From Armatimonadetes bacterium CG06_land_8_20_14_3_00_66_21 (GTDB lineage: Bacteria > Armatimonadota > Abditibacteriia > CG2-30-66-41): a stretch of DNA of 52,368 nt. The notes beneath the pieces are model-generated. The model made no database searches. It had not been told where the DNA came from and was given only the letters and a program-made list of their open reading frames with translations. Both the position numbers and the translations under genes were made by a program. The stretch lies in NCBI GenBank assembly GCA_002779825.1, contig PEVN01000148.1, forward strand, positions 1 through 52,368. Reading direction: 5' to 3'. Of this stretch, positions 8,951 to 27,270 are shown piece by piece; the first letter of the stretch is position 1, and every line of letters begins with the position of its first letter.

Positions 8951-9970
8951 TCAGAACAGCTTCGTGATCTCGTCCTTGACGAACATCTGCAGCGGCGCAG
9001 CTTCTCCCCGCCGAACCAACCGGACTCCCGCTTCCGGCGGCGTCACCACACCGATCTGGGCGCAGGCAATCCCGGCGCTGTGCATACCCCTTCGCACACG
9101 GTCTGCCTCGTCTGGACTGCAGGTCAACACGAGTGCTCCCGAGCCGAGCGTGCCCAGCGGATCCAGACCGAACTCGGCGCAGAGCCTCGCCGACTCTGGC
9201 AGCACCGGAATCGCCTCACTCTCAATCTGCAGCCCCACCCCGGCCGCGGCGGCAATCTCGTGGAGGCCGGTGGCCAGACCGCCCTCCGTCGGGTCATGCA
9301 TAGAGTGGATTCGGCCGGCCCCGCACGCCGCTTGGGCGTCGCGCACAATGCTGATGCCGGGGTCGGTGAGGTAGTCTCGCGCGCGTTGAAGAAACGGCGG
9401 AGCGTAGCCCCGCTCCAGCAGGACCGCTTCCCGTTCCTGGGCGATGAGCGCCGTCCCCTCAACGGCGATCCCCTTGGTGAGCAGCACCACATCGCCGACC
9501 TGGGCACCGGCGGTGGTGACTAGTCGGTCTTTGGCGACCTCACCCAGCATCTGCCCCACCAGGATCGGCCGGCGCAGGTCGTGGGTGATCTCGGTATGGC
9601 CGCCTGCCAGCGTGATGCCCAGCGAGCGGCAGGCGTCGGCAACGCCCTGGAACACGCTCTCTACCAGGGCGAGGTCGGTAGCGCCCTCCGGCAGCAGCAC
9701 GGCGGCAAGGAACCACTTGGGCGTGGCGCCCATGGTGGCGATGTCGTTGGCGTTGATGTGGACCGCGTACCAGCCGATCCGGTCGGTGGCGAAGGTGATG
9801 GGGTCGGTCTTCGCGACCAGGTACCGGTCGCCGAAGTCGATGACCGCGGCATCCTCCCCTACCCCGGGGCCGACGACGAGGCGCTCATCGGCTGTGGGGA
9901 GACGACCGATCAACGCCTCGAGAAGGCGGGGATCCAGCTTGCCCGTAGAGAAGTCGTAGTCGGTCACCAC
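8951..9970 (-). CDS. AIR synthase / HypE-like family protein
   Basis: 339 residues of the PurM-HypE-ThiL-SelD superfamily, ATP-using dimers. Seen: VGPGVGEDAAVIDFGDRYLVAKTDPITF (metal/ATP motif with GEDAA), VHINANDIATMGATPKWFLA (NDI helix), AGGHTEIT, and MHDPTEGGLATGLHEIA. It lacks the Cys-bearing C-terminus of HypE and the N-terminal catalytic loop of SelD, and differs from PurM, so it belongs to the AIR-synthase-related family with no assigned reaction. A GTG start at 9970 has GGAGG eight bases before it. It lies between lysS and a TIM-barrel isomerase on the same strand with gaps of 115-125 bases. The substrate is unknown; phosphorylation of a carboxylate or amide is a family-based guess. 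Confidence 0.8.
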   Translation of the reverse strand: MVTDYDFSTGKLDPRLLEALIGRLPTADERLVVGPGVGEDAAVIDFGDRYLVAKTDPITFATDRIGWYAVHINANDIATMGATPKWFLAAVLLPEGATDLALVESVFQGVADACRSLGITLAGGHTEITHDLRRPILVGQMLGEVAKDRLVTTAGAQVGDVVLLTKGIAVEGTALIAQEREAVLLERGYAPPFLQRARDYLTDPGISIVRDAQAACGAGRIHSMHDPTEGGLATGLHEIAAAAGVGLQIESEAIPVLPESARLCAEFGLDPLGTLGSGALVLTCSPDEADRVRRGMHSAGIACAQIGVVTPPEAGVRLVRRGEAAPLQMFVKDEITKLF

Positions 9971-17307: not shown

Positions 17308-18808
17308 GGCTGCCCTCTCCCAGGCGGTCCGGCCACCGATAGCGAAGGTTCGGCTTCCGGGCCGCGGTCGCTTCGTCCAGTCTCGATACGGGGGTCGTGA
17401 TCGGGGCCTCGTGGAGGCAGTCGGGCGACTCCGCTGCTTCTTCAGCAACCTGATTCAGGGCGTCGGCGAAGGCGTCGAGGACGGCCTTCGTCTCGGTCTC
17501 TGTCGGCTCCACCATCAGCGCCTCTTCCATCACGATTGGGAAGTAGACGGTGGGCGGATGGAAGCCCAGATCGATCAGGCGTTTGGCGACGTCCAAGGCG
17601 CGAATGCCTTTCTCGCCCTTCAGCCGCCGCGCACTCACGACGAATTCGTGCTTGCAGTGAGAGCCGAACGGTCGGTCGTACGCCTCGCTCAGCAGAGACA
17701 GCAGATAGTTGGCGTTGAGCACTGCCCGCTCCGTGACCTGGGTGAGCCCTTCGCCTCCGTTACTCAGGATGTACGCGTAGGCGCGCAGCAGGACGCCGGC
17801 ATTCCCGTGGAACGCGTGGACCTTCCCAATCGAGTCCGGCCGGTCGTGGTTGAGGACATACCCGTCGGTATGGCGCTCGACGACCGGCACCGGCAAGAAC
17901 GGCTCCAGGAGGCTCTTCACGCCCACCGGCCCGGCTCCGGGTCCGCCGCCGCCGTGGGGGGTCGAGAACGTCTTGTGGAGGTTGAAGTGCATTACGTCGC
18001 AGCCCATGTCGCCCGGCTTCGCCTTTCCCATGATGGCGTTCATGTTGGCGCCGTCATAGTACACCAGCCCGCCGGCTTCGTGCACCAGCCTCGCTGCTTC
18101 GGCGACGTGCTTCTCAAACAAGCCGAAGGTGTTGGGGTTCGTCAGCATCAGCCCGGCCGTGTCGTCGCCCAGGGCGCGCTTCAGCGCTTCCAGGTCGAGG
18201 CAACCGTCTGCCCCGGAGGCGAGGCTCACCGTCTCGTACCCGCAGCGCGCGGCGCTGGCGGGGTTTGTTCCGTGGGCCGAATCGGGGATCAGGATGACCC
18301 GCCGCTGGTCCTCCTCGCCGTGCTTCTCGTGATAGGAGTGGATCAGCAGAAGCCCGAGGAACTCCCCCTGCGCACCAGCGGCCGGCTGCAGCGTCACGGC
18401 GTCCATGCCGCCGATCTCCGCCAGTGCCTCCTGGAGCGCGTGCAACACCGCCAGCCAGCCCTGCATCGTGGCGGGATCTTGCAGAGGATGCACCTGAGTG
18501 AGCCCGGCGAGCGCGGCAACTCGCTCATTGAGCTTCGGGTTGTACTTCATCGTGCAACTGCCCAGCGGATAGAAGTGCGTATCCACCGAGAAGTTGCGCT
18601 GCGACAGTCGGGTGAAGTGCTGCACTACGGTGCGCTCTTCGACCTCCGGGAGTCGCACTGCCGTCTTCCGCCGCCGGTCCGCCGGAAGGGCGACGTCGAG
18701 GTCGACCAATGGCACATCCGCCAAAGCGGCATAGTTGCTGCGCACGGACGCCGTGCGTCCGCCGCGTCCCGGCGCGCTGTACTCGTGAATGAGTGGTTCC
18801 GTCTTCAT
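17300..18808 (-). CDS. gcvPB: Glycine dehydrogenase (decarboxylating) subunit 2
   Basis: 502 residues, the PLP-binding half of split P-protein; with GcvPA it decarboxylates glycine and passes the aminomethyl group to lipoyl-GcvH. The N-terminal part has [20 protein letters not shown] and [12 protein letters not shown]; the cofactor site includes [25 protein letters not shown] and [16 protein letters not shown] with the PLP lysine near residue 280. ATG at 18808 overlaps the gcvPA TGA in the 4-base form ATGA, so the two subunits are translationally coupled. ORF extension to 18877 is rejected for that reason. The C-terminus ends within the start region of the lipoate ligase. Confidence 0.96.
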
Positions 18809-20148
18809 GTGCACAGCTCCGCCAGAACGGACACAAGGGCGTCGAGTTCGTGGCGACGGCGCTTCTCGGTCACGCACAGCAACAGGCCGTTGGGAAGCCA
18901 GTCGAAGTCGCGGCGCAGCGGGTAGCCTCCGAGGAGGCCCGCTTCCCGCAGCCGCCCGTTGACCTGGTGCGCCGGCGCCGGACAGCTCACTGTGAATTCC
19001 TTGAAGAACGGTGCCGAGAACGGCAGCTCGATGCCTGCCAGCTCAGCGAGGCGCCTGCGCGTGTAGTGGGCCTTCTGCAGGCAGAGCTCTGCAACGGCAC
19101 GCACCCCCCGCGGGCCCAGCGCACACAGGTACACCGTGGCCGCCAGCGCACACAGCCCCTGGTTTGTGCAGATGTTCGAGGTGGCTTTCTCGCGCCGGAT
19201 GTGTTGCTCGCGGGTTTGCAGCGTGAGCACATATCCCGGCTTCCCGTTGACATCGGTCGTGGCGCCCACCAACCGACCGGGCAGCCTGCGGAGCAGGTCC
19301 TGCTTTGCGGTCATGATGCCAAGCCCCGGTCCTCCCAAAGACTGACCGATCCCCAACGCCTGCCCCTCCGCCACCGCCAAGTCGGCGTCGTACTCGCCCG
19401 GGGTCTCGACCAGCGCCAACGAGATTGGGTCGAACACCGAAATGAGCCGGCCGCCGCGTTCGTGGACCAGGCGCGAAACGACCTCGCACTCCTCCAGGCA
19501 GCCGAAAAAGTTGGGGTTCTGCACCACCGCCGCCGCGAACGGCGCCTGTGCCAGGTCAGAAAGATGATTGAGGTCGATCACGCCGCTGCGACACCGGACC
19601 GGCTCCAGCTCGATGTGAGAGCGGTGCGTGTATGTGTCCAACACAGCGCGGTAGGCCGGATGGACCGATTCGGGGACGAGAATCCGCGGGCTGTGCGACA
19701 CGCTGAGCGCGACGAACGCCGCCTCGGCCAGGGCGCTGGCGCCGTCGTATAGTGAGGCGTTGGCAACGTCCATCCCGGTCAGATCGCAAAGGAGCGACTG
19801 GAACTCATAGATGACTTGCAGCGTTCCCTGGCTGGCTTCCGGCTGATACGGCGTGTAGGAGGTGACGAACTCGCTGCGCGTGCACAGGGACGACACAACC
19901 GCCGGCACGTAGTGGTCGTAGCAGCCAGCGCCAAGGAAGGACGGCGTCCGGTCGCTGGACAGGTTGAGATCTGCCAGGCGCTGAAGGCGCGCCTCTACCT
20001 CCATCTCTGACAGGCCGGGAGGCAGCTCGAGATCGGCGCTCTGCCTCAGCTCCTCCGGGATGTCGGCGAACAGGTCCTCGACGCTGCCCGTCCCCAAGCG
20101 GTCGAGCATCTGTCGGGTGTCGTCCTCTGTGTGGGGCCAGTAGCCCAA
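18805..20148 (-). CDS. gcvPA: Glycine dehydrogenase (decarboxylating) subunit 1
   Basis: 447 residues, the other half of split P-protein. Seen: [40 protein letters not shown] (family signature), [18 protein letters not shown] and [19 protein letters not shown]. The start is a TTG at 20148-20146, seven bases after a GGAGG that lies in the last codons of gcvH; the resulting protein has the usual length. The longer ORF to 20241 overlaps gcvH and is not supported. The C-terminal TGA is shared with the gcvPB ATG. Position between gcvH and gcvPB is the standard order in bacteria with a split P-protein. Confidence 0.95.
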
Positions 20149-20150
20149 GG

Positions 20151-20534
20151 CTATGCCTCCTCGAGCATCTGCCGGTACTGGGCTGCGCTCATCAGTAGCT
20201 GCGTCTCCCCGGCGTCGGCCAGGCGCACCTTGAGCATCCACCCTTCGCCGTATGGGTCTTCATTGATGCGCTCAGGTTCCTCATGCAGGAGCGTGTTCAC
20301 CTCGACCACGGTCCCGGTGATGCCCGCAATCAGGTCGGACACAGCCTTGATGGACTCGATCACGCCAAACGGCGTGTCGGGTCCCACGGTGTCGCCCACT
20401 TCGGGCAGCTCGAGGTAGACGACTTCGCCCAATTCGTCTTGAGCGAAGTCGGTGATGCCCACAGTGGCAACGCCTTCCTCTACCTTGACCCATTCGTGGG
20501 TCTTCGAGTACAGCAGTTCTTCTGGCGTATTCAT
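20151..20534 (-). CDS. gcvH: Glycine cleavage H protein (lipoyl carrier)
   Basis: 127 residues, normal for GcvH. It carries the aminomethyl group on a lipoyl lysine between the P, T and L proteins. Lys63 in GVIESIKAVSDL is the lipoylation site; other landmarks are KTHEWVKVEEGVATVGITDFAQ, GEVVYLELPEVGDTV, and the end DPYGEGWMLKVRLAD. ATG at 20534 has AGGAG nine bases upstream; the ORF start at 20711 would add 59 residues of non-homologous sequence. The stop TAG is three bases from the gcvPA TTG. The gap to gcvT (about 170 bases) holds no clear element and no glycine riboswitch pattern that I can see. Confidence 0.97.
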   Translation of the reverse strand: MNTPEELLYSKTHEWVKVEEGVATVGITDFAQDELGEVVYLELPEVGDTVGPDTPFGVIESIKAVSDLIAGITGTVVEVNTLLHEEPERINEDPYGEGWMLKVRLADAGETQLLMSAAQYRQMLEEA

Positions 20535-20707
20535 GGTGGGGTTCTCCTTCGGCAACGGGTGCGCGCGGCGTAAGGGCGGTGCCTGCGTGCCCGCCCCGGC
20601 AAGGGCCGACAAACTTGGCGGGCGCACCGGGCAGACGCATGGGTCTGTCCCTGCGGTGCGGTGCGTCTTCCGCGGTTGGGGTGGGCGCTTGACCAATCCA
20701 TGCGGCC

Positions 20708-21811
20708 TCACATGCTCTCGGAACGGTAGAACGGCAGTGGCACCACGGTAGCCGCGTGCAATCCCTGCCGGATCCGAATCTCCATCTGCTCGCCGACAGC
20801 CGGAGCGGGGTGCTCCACGTACGCCAACGCAATCCCTTTGCCGAGTGTCGGCGAGAACGTGCCGCTGGTCACTTTGCCGACGACTGCGCCGTTCCGGACA
20901 ACCTCATAGCCTGCGCGGGGAACAGCCCGGTCGGGCGTCGCCAACCCGACCAATCGGCGGCGGTTACCAGACTCAGCCAAGTGCTGGAGAGCGGCCTTCC
21001 CCACGAAGTCAGCCTTGTTCAGTTTCACCGCCCACGCGAGCCCGCACTCCATCGGCGACCGGTCCTCGGTCAACTCGTGTCCGTACAGCGGCAGCGCCGC
21101 CTCGAGCCGGCACACATCGCGCGCCGCCAGGCCGCAGGGCACCCCACCCGCGTCTGTCAGTGCGGTCCACAGCCCGGCGGCCGCTGCGGCCGGGGCCAGG
21201 ATCTCAAAGCCGTCTTCGCCGGTATAGCCCGTGCAGGCGAGGACGACTTCGACACCCTCCAACTCCACCTGCATGAACCCATTGCGGGGCAGCAAGGCGG
21301 CGAGGTCGGCCAGCGCACCCGACGCCAGCGTCCGGGCGAGCGGGCCCTGTACGGCAATCGCAGCTTCCCACTGAAGCGCAAACGACACCTCGCCGTGCGC
21401 GTGTCGCTTCATCCACCCCAGATCGGTCTCCGCCCGAGAGGCGTTGACGAGACAGCGCCACTCCTGCTCGCCGAACCGGTACGCCAGCAGGTCGTCTACC
21501 ACGCCGCCGTTCTCGTTGCACAGGGGCGAGTACGCCGAGCGACCAGTCTTCAGGTCGGCGACGCGATTGGTCAGCAGGTGGTCCAGGTTCGCGGTGGCGT
21601 CACGGCCGGAAACGAGCACTTGCGCGAGATGTGACACGTCGAACACCCCGACTTCTGTGCGCACCGCGCCCACCTCGGACAGGATACCCGCGTAGGACAG
21701 CGGCAACTCCCACCCGGCGAACTCACCCATCTTGGCGCCAAGCCGAAGGTGGCAGTCGTGCAGGGGCGTGCGTCTCAAAGTTGGCGGTTGTTCATCCATG
21801 CTCATCGGCAC
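20708..21811 (-). CDS. gcvT: Aminomethyltransferase (glycine cleavage T protein)
   Basis: 367 residues. It transfers the methylene carbon from aminomethyl-lipoyl GcvH to tetrahydrofolate, releasing ammonia. Seen: RTPLHDCHLRLGAKMGEFAGWELPL, GVFDVSHLAQVLVSG, GGVVDDLLAYRF, ACTGYTGEDGFEIL and GLAARDVCRLEAALPLYGHEL, EDRSPMECGLAWAV, all standard. The start is either GTG 21811 or the ATGs at 21805 and 21799; the GTG lies three bases after the stop of the upstream DUF2993 gene, so coupling to that gene is likely. gcvT leads the set gcvT-gcvH-gcvPA-gcvPB-lipoate ligase. The L protein (lpd) is not in the window. Confidence 0.95.
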   Translation of the reverse strand: MPMSMDEQPPTLRRTPLHDCHLRLGAKMGEFAGWELPLSYAGILSEVGAVRTEVGVFDVSHLAQVLVSGRDATANLDHLLTNRVADLKTGRSAYSPLCNENGGVVDDLLAYRFGEQEWRCLVNASRAETDLGWMKRHAHGEVSFALQWEAAIAVQGPLARTLASGALADLAALLPRNGFMQVELEGVEVVLACTGYTGEDGFEILAPAAAAAGLWTALTDAGGVPCGLAARDVCRLEAALPLYGHELTEDRSPMECGLAWAVKLNKADFVGKAALQHLAESGNRRRLVGLATPDRAVPRAGYEVVRNGAVVGKVTSGTFSPTLGKGIALAYVEHPAPAVGEQMEIRIRQGLHAATVVPLPFYRSESM

Positions 21812-23721: not shown

Positions 23722-23809
23722 GCGAACCCCGCTGCGAGGGTTTGGGCGGCGGGCACCGAACAAGGGAACGAGACGATGCGTCCAGTCTCGGAGAGGTGCT
23801 CGCCGACTC

Positions 23810-25986
23810 ATGAACCGCCTCACCTTCCCCGCCTGCTTCTTCTGCGCCGCGGCGCTCATGGTCGCCCTCGCCCCTCAACCCGCGAAGGCCGAAGGGACGC
23901 AACAGAACTCCCCCTCGGCGCGTGGACCGCGGTCGGTAGCTGTATGGATCGACCGGGACCTGACCCCGCCCCCGCCCACCGATCCCCAAGCGCTTGCCGA
24001 GCTGCTGGAGCGCGAGGGGTTCCACGTCACGCGATTGTCCACCGCCGACCTGACTTCCAACGACCGGATGGACCCTCGTCGGTTCAACGTCCTTGTGTTG
24101 CCCTACAGCGAGGTGTACCCGGCCGCCGGAGGCGCCGCACTTGAGACATTTCTCGCTTCGGGCGGCGCCTACGTGGCCCTCGGAGGGTGCGGCCCTACTG
24201 CGCCGCTGTACCGAAGCGGGGACGGCTGGCTCCGCGCCGATGCCGTGGGCAAGACCGCCTGGGCTGACACCGGCACCGAGGCATGGGACTCGAACCGCCG
24301 CGGTGACGAAACCGGCCTTGCCGTTGCCGCCACCGAAGAGGGAGCGCTCTTCTCCACGGCGGAGGTCGCGGCGTACGCGTACGCCGGCCGCAAGCTGCCG
24401 CCACTACCACCCACCGCGAGCGTCCTCTGCTTCGACGCCCGCGGCGACGGGCGGACGCCCTTTCTGTGTCTGGAGCTGCGCGAGCGGGACGGCTCTCGCT
24501 GGAAGCACGTTCTGCCGCTCTCGGAACAGTGGCAGAAGCGCCGCCTCCCGTTGACGACCGTGGCGAGCTACGCCAGCAAGCAGCGGGGGACGAAGGGCGA
24601 CTACCTCCATGCCGATCGTGCCGAGAGCCTGTGGTTCGGGTTCACTCGGGCGATGGTGGGGCCCGGCGCGCATGAGTTCCGGATCCGCGGTCTCCGGTTC
24701 GCCGAATCGCCTGTCCCGCCGGACGAGATTGCAGCGTCTCCCTCCCACAACCCCAACCACGTTCTGGCTGCTCGGTTCTTCGGGAAGGACCTCGTGTCGG
24801 TCGGCGAGGCGGCCGATCTGTCGTGCGGGCCGCGCGCCGCACGCACCTCGGGCCGCCTTGGCGTGACAAGTGGGGTGATGCCCGTCCATTTCCCCCTGTC
24901 GGCCGACCAAGCCGCGACTGTCACTGCCTGCCCGCTCACCCCGTTGCCGACGGCGGGAACCCGACTCGTGCCGCTGTTGGAAGTGGTTCGCGACGACACG
25001 GCTGAACGGAGTGTGGTCGCCGCGATGGTCATGAACTACAGCGGACCGTACTCCGGCAGCGTCCGGGCCGCCATTGGAGTCAGCGGCGTGGACCTGCTGG
25101 CAGGCGTGATCCCCGGTATGCGCGAGGGAACCGTCGACCTTTGCCGCTTCCTCTGCGAAGGCATCGTGTGGGGCGACCCGCGACTGGAGTGTCGTCCGGT
25201 CGGTCAGGACGTGCGGCTATCCGTCACCTGTCCGCTGCTCAGCCGCGCTGAAGGGCCTGCGGTCGTTGCGAGCCATGGGGCACTGGTCTCGGGGCAGGCT
25301 CGCGAGGAGCGCAGCGCCAGCGTGACCCTGAAAGCACACGGCACCGCTCAGCTCTCGCTGGGAGAGTTCCCCGCGTCGGCGGCGGACTGGCGCGACTGGT
25401 CGGTCAGCGCCCGGTGGTGCCCCTCGACAAGCCAACGCGCATCTTCGCTCCGGAACAGAACACCTACACCATCGGCTGCACCCTTGCCGCGGCGTACGCC
25501 TACGCCCGGCTCACCGGCGACCCGAAGGACGAACAGGCAGCACAGCGCGACGCCGAATGGCTTATGGCGCGAGCGCAGAACCTGCACGGCGCGTTCGTGG
25601 AGAGCTTCCTGTACGCCCACGCCTTCACCACCGACGAGCAGCAGCGGGCGAAGTACGCCGAGTTCCTGCGCACCCACTTCGTCGAGGCAATGTGCAGCAA
25701 CCAGACGGACTGGTGGCAGAACAGCGCCGGGCGCAGTGCGCTAAACCTGGACGGTCTGGTCTACTGCTACGCGCATCTCGGTCAGGACCCTCGCGTGCTC
25801 GCCCAGATCATCAGTGCCACGAGCGCCCTCTTCTCGCCGCACTCGCCGCAGTCGCTCTACCAACTGCGGAATCAGCCCGCCCTCTCCGTTGACGAGGGAA
25901 TCTACACCTGCTTCAGCTACTGCAGCCTGCCCGACGTGATCCAGCCGATGATCACGATGAAACCGTTCGAGCGCGTCAGGCAGTGA
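23810..25986 (+). pseudogene. Secreted multi-domain protein broken by a frameshift
   Basis: A single gene seems split. From ATG 23810 comes a signal peptide (MNRLTFPACFFCAAALMVAL, AxA site near residue 26), then a GATase-like/Rossmann-like segment (SVAVWIDRDLTPPP to TFLASGGAYVALGG), a beta-sandwich region containing WKHVLPLSEQWQKRRLPL, and further strands up to about 25390. After that the frame degenerates into Ser/Arg/Thr-rich shadow sequence, while the frame one base back becomes protein-like: VVPLDKPTRIFAPEQNTYTIG then helices of an alpha/alpha type (LAAAYAYARLTGDPKDEQAAQRDAEWLMARAQ) up to the stop at 25986. One missing base near 25380-25410 would join them into about 725 residues. The enzyme activity is not recognised; carbohydrate-related by context. 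Confidence 0.6.
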
Positions 25987-26015: not shown

Positions 26016-27059
26016 TCAGACCACAACGACCCCGGCCCCGTCGGTGACCTCCCCGACGACGCGGAACTCGTGCCTGGCGGCGGAGTCGCGGAGCCGCTCC
26101 AGCCCGTCGGGCGAAAGCGCGGCCAGCAGCCCGCCCGAGGTTTCCGGCGTGAACAGCAGCGTCCGGTACTCATCGCCGAGGGGCAGCTCGAACGACACCC
26201 GATCCGCATACGCCTGTTCGTTGCGGCACGCTCCAGCGGGGAACAGCCACTCCCGGGCGTACTGCTTCGCCCCCTCGTGATAGGGCAGGTCGTCGAACCG
26301 GAGGCGCACCTGGACGCCGCTCTCCAGCGCAATCTCGGCCGCGTGTCCCAGCACCCCGAAACCGGTCACGTCGGTGACGCACCGCACGCCAGCCCCCTTG
26401 AGCGACTGCGCCGCTTGGCGGTTGAGCACCTTCATCGCCGCCACCGCGCCCGCGACGTGCGCCGCTTCGGCCGCCTCGCCCGCAGCCGCGGTGGTGATGA
26501 TCCCGACTCCCAGTGGTTTGCTGAGAACCAGCACGTCCCCCGGACGGGCGGCGGCGTTGGTGGTCAACTCGGCCGGTGGAACCATCCCGACAACGCTCAA
26601 CCCGTACTTCGGTTCGTTGTCATCGATTGTGTGTCCGCCGGCGATGACGCCTCCGGCCGCCGCCACGGCGTCGGCGCCGCCGCGCAGGAGGTCGGCGACG
26701 ACCCCGTCAGGCAGCTCCGGCGGCAGCGCCAGCAGATTCAGCGCAAGGAGGATCTCGCCCCCCATGGCGTACACGTCGCTCATCGCGTTCGCGGCGGCTA
26801 TGTAGCCAAAGTCGTAGGGGTCGTCGACGATAGGCGGGATGAAGTCGGCCGTGCAGAGCAACACCCGGTCGTCGTCCAGACGATAGGCAGCGGCGTCGTC
26901 CGGGTGGCCCAGACCGACCAGCAACTCGGGGTGCTCCGCAGCGGGGAAGCGCGCCTGTAGCGGGCGCAGGACCTGCGCCAGGGCATCGGGTGCCCGCTTG
27001 GCCGCTCACCCAGCCGCACGGGTCATTTGCGTTAGCCGTAGCTTCTCTTCTTTGTGCAT
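26016..27059 (-). CDS. selD: Selenide, water dikinase with in-frame UGA (Sec18)
   Basis: SelD makes monoselenophosphate from selenide and ATP, the selenium donor for Sec-tRNA. Read from ATG 27059 it has 347 residues, the same as E. coli SelD. Codon 18 is TGA (27008-27006) in the context A-A-G-UGA-A-A-K; in Cys-type enzymes this is G-C-x-x-K, so UGA stands at the catalytic Cys and Lys21 is the essential lysine. The region before it (M-H-K-E-E-K-L-R-L-T-Q) matches the SelD N-terminus, and the frame after it runs unbroken into CTADFIPPIVDDPYDFG, AANAMSDVYAMGG, AGGHTIDDNEPKYGL, and TDVTGFGVLGHAAE. Ordinary ORF calling would start at TTG 26924 and lose the active site. A stem-loop follows the UGA. 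yedF lies upstream on the same strand. Confidence 0.9.
26977..27002 (-). promoter_or_regulatory. Candidate bacterial SECIS stem-loop
   Basis: Directly after the UGA, on the transcript: GCCA, a three-base bulge AGC, GGGCA, loop CCCGA, TGCCC, TGGC. The loop starts 15 bases and its G lies 19 bases after the UGA, within the distance known for bacterial SECIS elements read by SelB. The G is fourth in the loop rather than first or second, so the match to the known pattern is good but not perfect. Confidence 0.6.
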
Positions 27060-27117
27060 TGTGGACCTGTCTGACCGATCGGGCTGATCCGACGGATGAT
27101 GTCCTGCGAAGACGCGT

Positions 27118-27218
27118 TGTCAATCCGAGCCGCGCCGTGAGGGAGCGCGTGAGCCGTCGGCGTCGCGGACCAAGTCAGCTTGTCACGCGCTCCCTCACGG
27201 GCGCGGCTCGGATTGACA
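27118..27218. repeat. Long hairpin of AATCCGAGCCGCG family, yedF-selD gap
   Basis: Arms 27118-27152 and 27183-27218 pair over 35 bases with a single bulged C, around a 30-base loop. The outer arm contains AATCCGAGCCGCG, shared exactly with the hairpin at 510-579; the inner part differs. It lies in the gap between yedF and selD. In RNA it would be a very stable stem, and could lower or time expression of selD relative to yedF. Confidence 0.85.
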
Positions 27219-27270
27219 GCGCCTTCTCCGTTGGAGTGCTCAAGCGAAACGCGAACACGGAGGATCCCTA

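Follow-up and report, generated by a model that had tools for sequence, protein, structure and literature searches.

A putative selenocysteine-containing SelD with a covarying bSECIS hairpin in a bacterium with a predicted selenocysteine system

Selenophosphate synthetase, SelD, is the second most widespread selenoprotein family of prokaryotes (PMC13188914; PMC1794560). As early as 2006, 38 SelD sequences with selenocysteine (Sec) were counted, and all bacteria known at that time to contain selenoproteins had SelD or FdhA (PMC1794560). Conversion of Sec to Cys has been described for both SelD and FdhA, and some converted genes keep remnant SECIS-like structures (PMC1794560). According to the published model, the bacterial SECIS element (bSECIS) has a loop of 3–9 nt, a stem of 4–16 bp, a G among the first two loop positions and a spacing of 16–37 nt (PMC13188914). 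Complete Sec machinery and selenoproteins have also been published for planctomycete genomes (PMC4807772).

The gene described here occupies positions 26016–27059 on the minus strand of the window, that is, the whole stretch of 52,368 nucleotides that was analysed. Its frame runs from an ATG at 27059–27057 to a terminal TGA stop at 26018–26016 and comprises 347 codons plus the stop; the sole internal stop is the TGA at 27008–27006, codon 18, at the catalytic position, in the context AAG-U-AAK. With this codon read as Sec, the N-terminus is MHKEEKLRLTQMTRAAG-U-AAKRAPDALAQVL. The full frame matches the NCBIfam selD model TIGR00476 over residues 8–318 with 354.1 bits (cut-off 125) and NF002098 with 327.1 bits (cut-off 299). 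The alignment with the solved Cys-form SelD 3u0o begins at residue 4 and places U18 opposite the Cys of AGCGCK; U18-A-A-K21 thereby faces C-G-C-K, with the Lys three residues after the Cys/Sec, as in the SelD loop. By contrast, an open reading frame under table 11 is available only from a TTG at 26922–26924 (minus strand), from which a gene caller would begin a truncated SelD of 302 aa without the catalytic loop. The segment upstream of this TTG matches the 3u0o chain position by position. Thus, the sequence-only reading was right about the start, the length and the place of the UGA in codon 18; it had also foreseen both the truncation by automated annotation and an N-terminus that aligns with SelD proteins, Sec standing at the Cys/Sec site. 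For one gene, then, the annotation is corrected, since a plain table-11 caller would report the 302-aa product. We put the probability at about 97% that the gene encodes a selenophosphate synthetase with Sec at the catalytic position, decoded by SelB via a bSECIS, both Sec insertion and enzyme activity being predictions.

The distribution of Sec and Cys among relatives points the same way. Named relatives retrieved from GTDB genomes span Bacillota, Chloroflexota, Gemmatimonadota, Myxococcota, Planctomycetota, Actinomycetota, Fidelibacterota and others, and 52 out of 58 have TGA at the site of codon 18, the other six having a Cys codon. Within the phylum of the bacterium itself, 220 of 291 genomes gave some SelD match, many of them weak and probably PurM-like paralogs; TGA occupies the site in 26 of the best 30 matches. 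Sec is therefore the predicted majority form at the SelD catalytic site among the relatives retrieved. Because the codon recurs at the same position in so many genomes, the TGA is not a product of chance or assembly error. In the phylogeny, a fully supported clade unites the SelD of the window with L024, L025 and L083, all Sec forms, and with a single Cys form, L082; its identity to the closest named Sec forms, L023–L025, is 56–58%. L082, from genome G202, is nested among Sec forms, is 60% identical to the SelD of the window and has TGT in place of TGA. Downstream of this TGT a hairpin is still recognisable but damaged (GCGCACGTGCTGCGC; 6/7 pairs), so that L082 looks like a Sec-to-Cys conversion with a relic bSECIS.

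The candidate bSECIS of the gene itself lies at 26963–26979 (minus strand). Its 7-bp stem (GGCGCAG/CUGCGCC) begins 26 nt 3′ of the UGA, and its loop, GUC (26972–26970), lies at 33 nt; loop, stem and distance all agree with the published model (PMC13188914). A check of the fold had been proposed for 26970–27008: the hairpin is indeed there and covaries, but that range cuts off its 3′ arm. The codons for LAQVLRP overlap with the hairpin, so that the pairing could simply reflect protein conservation, a cause that needed to be ruled out. In 63 distinct sequences of the Sec form, 5.65 of these seven pairs are formed on average, whereas 1000 rounds of resampling synonymous codons by each gene's own usage gave 3.97 (sd 0.13, maximum 4.41) and 2000 shuffles of the 3′ arm among sequences gave 4.50 (maximum 4.84); since the sequences are mutually related, these figures are not strict probabilities. 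Compensatory changes are visible in arm pairs such as GCGCAG..CTGCGC, GCTCAG..CTGAGC, TCGCAG..CTGCGA, GGGCAG..CTGTCC, ATGCAA..TTGCAT and GCGGAG..CTCCGC, and the loop starts with GU in all 44 sequences that have at least six pairs. About 30% of the distinct Sec-form relatives fall short of six pairs out of seven in the exact register of the window. Taken by itself, the sequence of the window retains a seven-pair stem in ~9% of synonymous resamplings, and the support for the hairpin thus comes from the comparison, in which the predicted stem covaries far more than protein sequence or codon usage would account for. At gathering thresholds, an Rfam scan returned no matches in the window.

A Sec-containing SelD calls for the machinery that decodes it, and the sequence-only reading had supposed that selA, selB and selC would be found. 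All three are present in the same genome, a draft of 8.29 Mb in 578 contigs (93% complete, 6.6% contamination), where they are consecutive on contig C298 (17556–21141) and above their cut-offs: selB at 17556–19445 (360.7 bits), selA at 19498–20850 (534.4 bits) and the tRNA-Sec gene, selC, at 21049–21141, which scores 79.6 bits and has the anticodon TCA according to ARAGORN. A tRNA scan of the window itself found none. That the contigs belong together rests, in a draft genome, on binning, composition and shared repeats. The GC content of C298 is 66.2%, compared with 66.1% for the window, and their tetranucleotide profiles correlate with r = 0.97, whereas loci from other genomes give 0.37–0.71, but are shorter and so noisier. 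A near-perfect palindromic repeat with nested 23-nt and 18-nt arms (27114–27222, no strand assigned) lies upstream of selD, between it and a divergent gene, and its GAGCCGCG...CGTGAGGGAGCG motif is also present on two further contigs, C467 and C482, which makes it a dispersed repeat of the genome and probably no part of selD function; C467 also carries a Sec-peroxiredoxin-like gene. Given the GC content, the tetranucleotide profile and this shared repeat, contamination is an unlikely source of the contigs with the Sec machinery, and the bacterium can be credited with a putative, working-looking selenocysteine system. On the other side of selD, a gene of unknown family at 23807–25986 (plus strand) shows an apparent frame switch near 25,400–25,440, where the open reading frame with its end at 25744 no longer looks coding and the next frame runs on to 25986; this is probably an indel or an assembly error.

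SelD is not the only candidate for Sec in this genome, whose selenoproteome was surveyed family by family and not in full. A SelW-like putative selenoprotein (C468:5822–6025) has TGA at the redox Cys position, in FCNSUGYG. Furthermore, five of 17 AhpC-TSA matches contain one TGA each, always at the position of the redox-active Cys; these peroxiredoxin/TlpA-like putative selenoproteins are located at C467:35819–36211, C135:7682–8080, C364:3561–3929, C125:729–1067 and C364:17898–18272, and the contexts among them are ASWUPYC, TGGUTVEAC, LWUPMC, ASWUGC and PGURMC. These families independently support the use of UGA for Sec in this genome. Most UGAs of the SelW-like and AhpC-TSA genes are followed by sequence that could fold into a hairpin with G at the first or second loop position; the loop reads GGUCU for the SelW-like gene, for example, and GGUCG for the one on C467, whereas the case on C135 is weak. 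When the window and C298 were scanned for more TGA-interrupted genes, all hits were ordinary frames of adjacent genes or of the antisense strand and none was convincing; the scan is not exhaustive, since the selD TGA itself failed it. Overall, a bacterium known from a draft genome appears to have at least seven putative selenoproteins, SelD included.

These observations bear on how else the TGA could be read. If it were a genuine stop or an error of sequencing, selD would be a truncated or pseudogenised gene starting at TTG 26924, and the 302-aa frame that such a reading needs does exist. However, the 17 codons before the TGA, as well as those between the TGA and the TTG, are conserved with SelD, the TGA recurs at the same codon in the named relatives and in the best matches of the phylum, the hairpin covaries and the genome contains Sec machinery, which together make a truncated SelD very improbable. 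Still less credible is that UGA 18 is read as Cys or Trp, by suppression or under a reassigned code, instead of as Sec: selD itself terminates in TGA, the tRNA with the TCA anticodon is tRNA-Sec and, in the families checked, internal TGAs occur only at positions of redox-active Cys.

A Sec-decoded SelD could also be imagined as the sole selenoprotein, the Sec system existing only to make it. The formate dehydrogenase-like protein (C415:18119–18271), for which many Sec-decoding bacteria have Sec, is here a Cys form (NCARVCHAPS), and no 2-selenouridine synthase above the cut-off was found in the genome, both of which would fit such a system. Against it stand the six further putative selenoprotein genes, SelW-like and peroxiredoxin/TlpA-like, by which, provided that they come from one and the same organism, the idea is rejected. 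Since SelD is not the only selenoprotein candidate in the genome, a purely self-serving loop is very improbable.

We propose that SelB and Sec-tRNA-Sec would recode UGA 18 through the bSECIS hairpin, and that Sec18 and Lys21 would then form the selenium-handling loop. SelD would make selenophosphate from selenide and ATP, and SelA would use it to produce Sec-tRNA-Sec, as in the described pathway (PMC1794560; PMC13188914). Because selenophosphate feeds this synthesis by SelA, some SelD activity would be needed to make more SelD. Indeed, the genome has one SelD above the cut-off, a Sec form, so that, as far as the genome is complete, the synthesis of selenophosphate seems to require its own product. 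The term ‘autocatalytic loop’, used in the sequence-only reading, is fair as a description of a biosynthetic dependency rather than of kinetics, and the dependency is a known one. By the same token, the first SelD would not be makeable without selenophosphate; that it is bootstrapped by a backup, whether the truncated TTG-started form, Cys or another residue inserted at a low level at the UGA, or a PurM-like paralog encoded in the window, seems improbable.

Compared with described systems, the Sec-SelD proteins of bacteria and archaea are the closest: they share the catalytic Sec in the N-terminal selenium-binding loop, the Lys at +3, the full-length family match, a bSECIS just downstream and Sec machinery in the genome, and differ only by sequence divergence. 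Cys-SelD, represented by PDB 3u0o, is homologous over the whole length and has the same loop and Lys, but carries Cys (AGCGCK) instead of Sec and needs no bSECIS. The second-best SelD match in the genome is a PurM-like protein of the HypE/ThiL/SelD superfamily (window 8951–9970, minus strand; match at 9173–9943); it shares the AIRS and AIRS_C domains, but scores 103 bits against the SelD cut-off of 125 and has neither a TGA nor the Sec/Cys loop. The novelty implied for a Sec-containing SelD was therefore overstated, as this is the majority form in our set and is well described. The Sec-SelD of this bacterium is well supported as real but ordinary, its form having been described since at least 2006, and it adds a further example to a widespread family whose general picture is unchanged.
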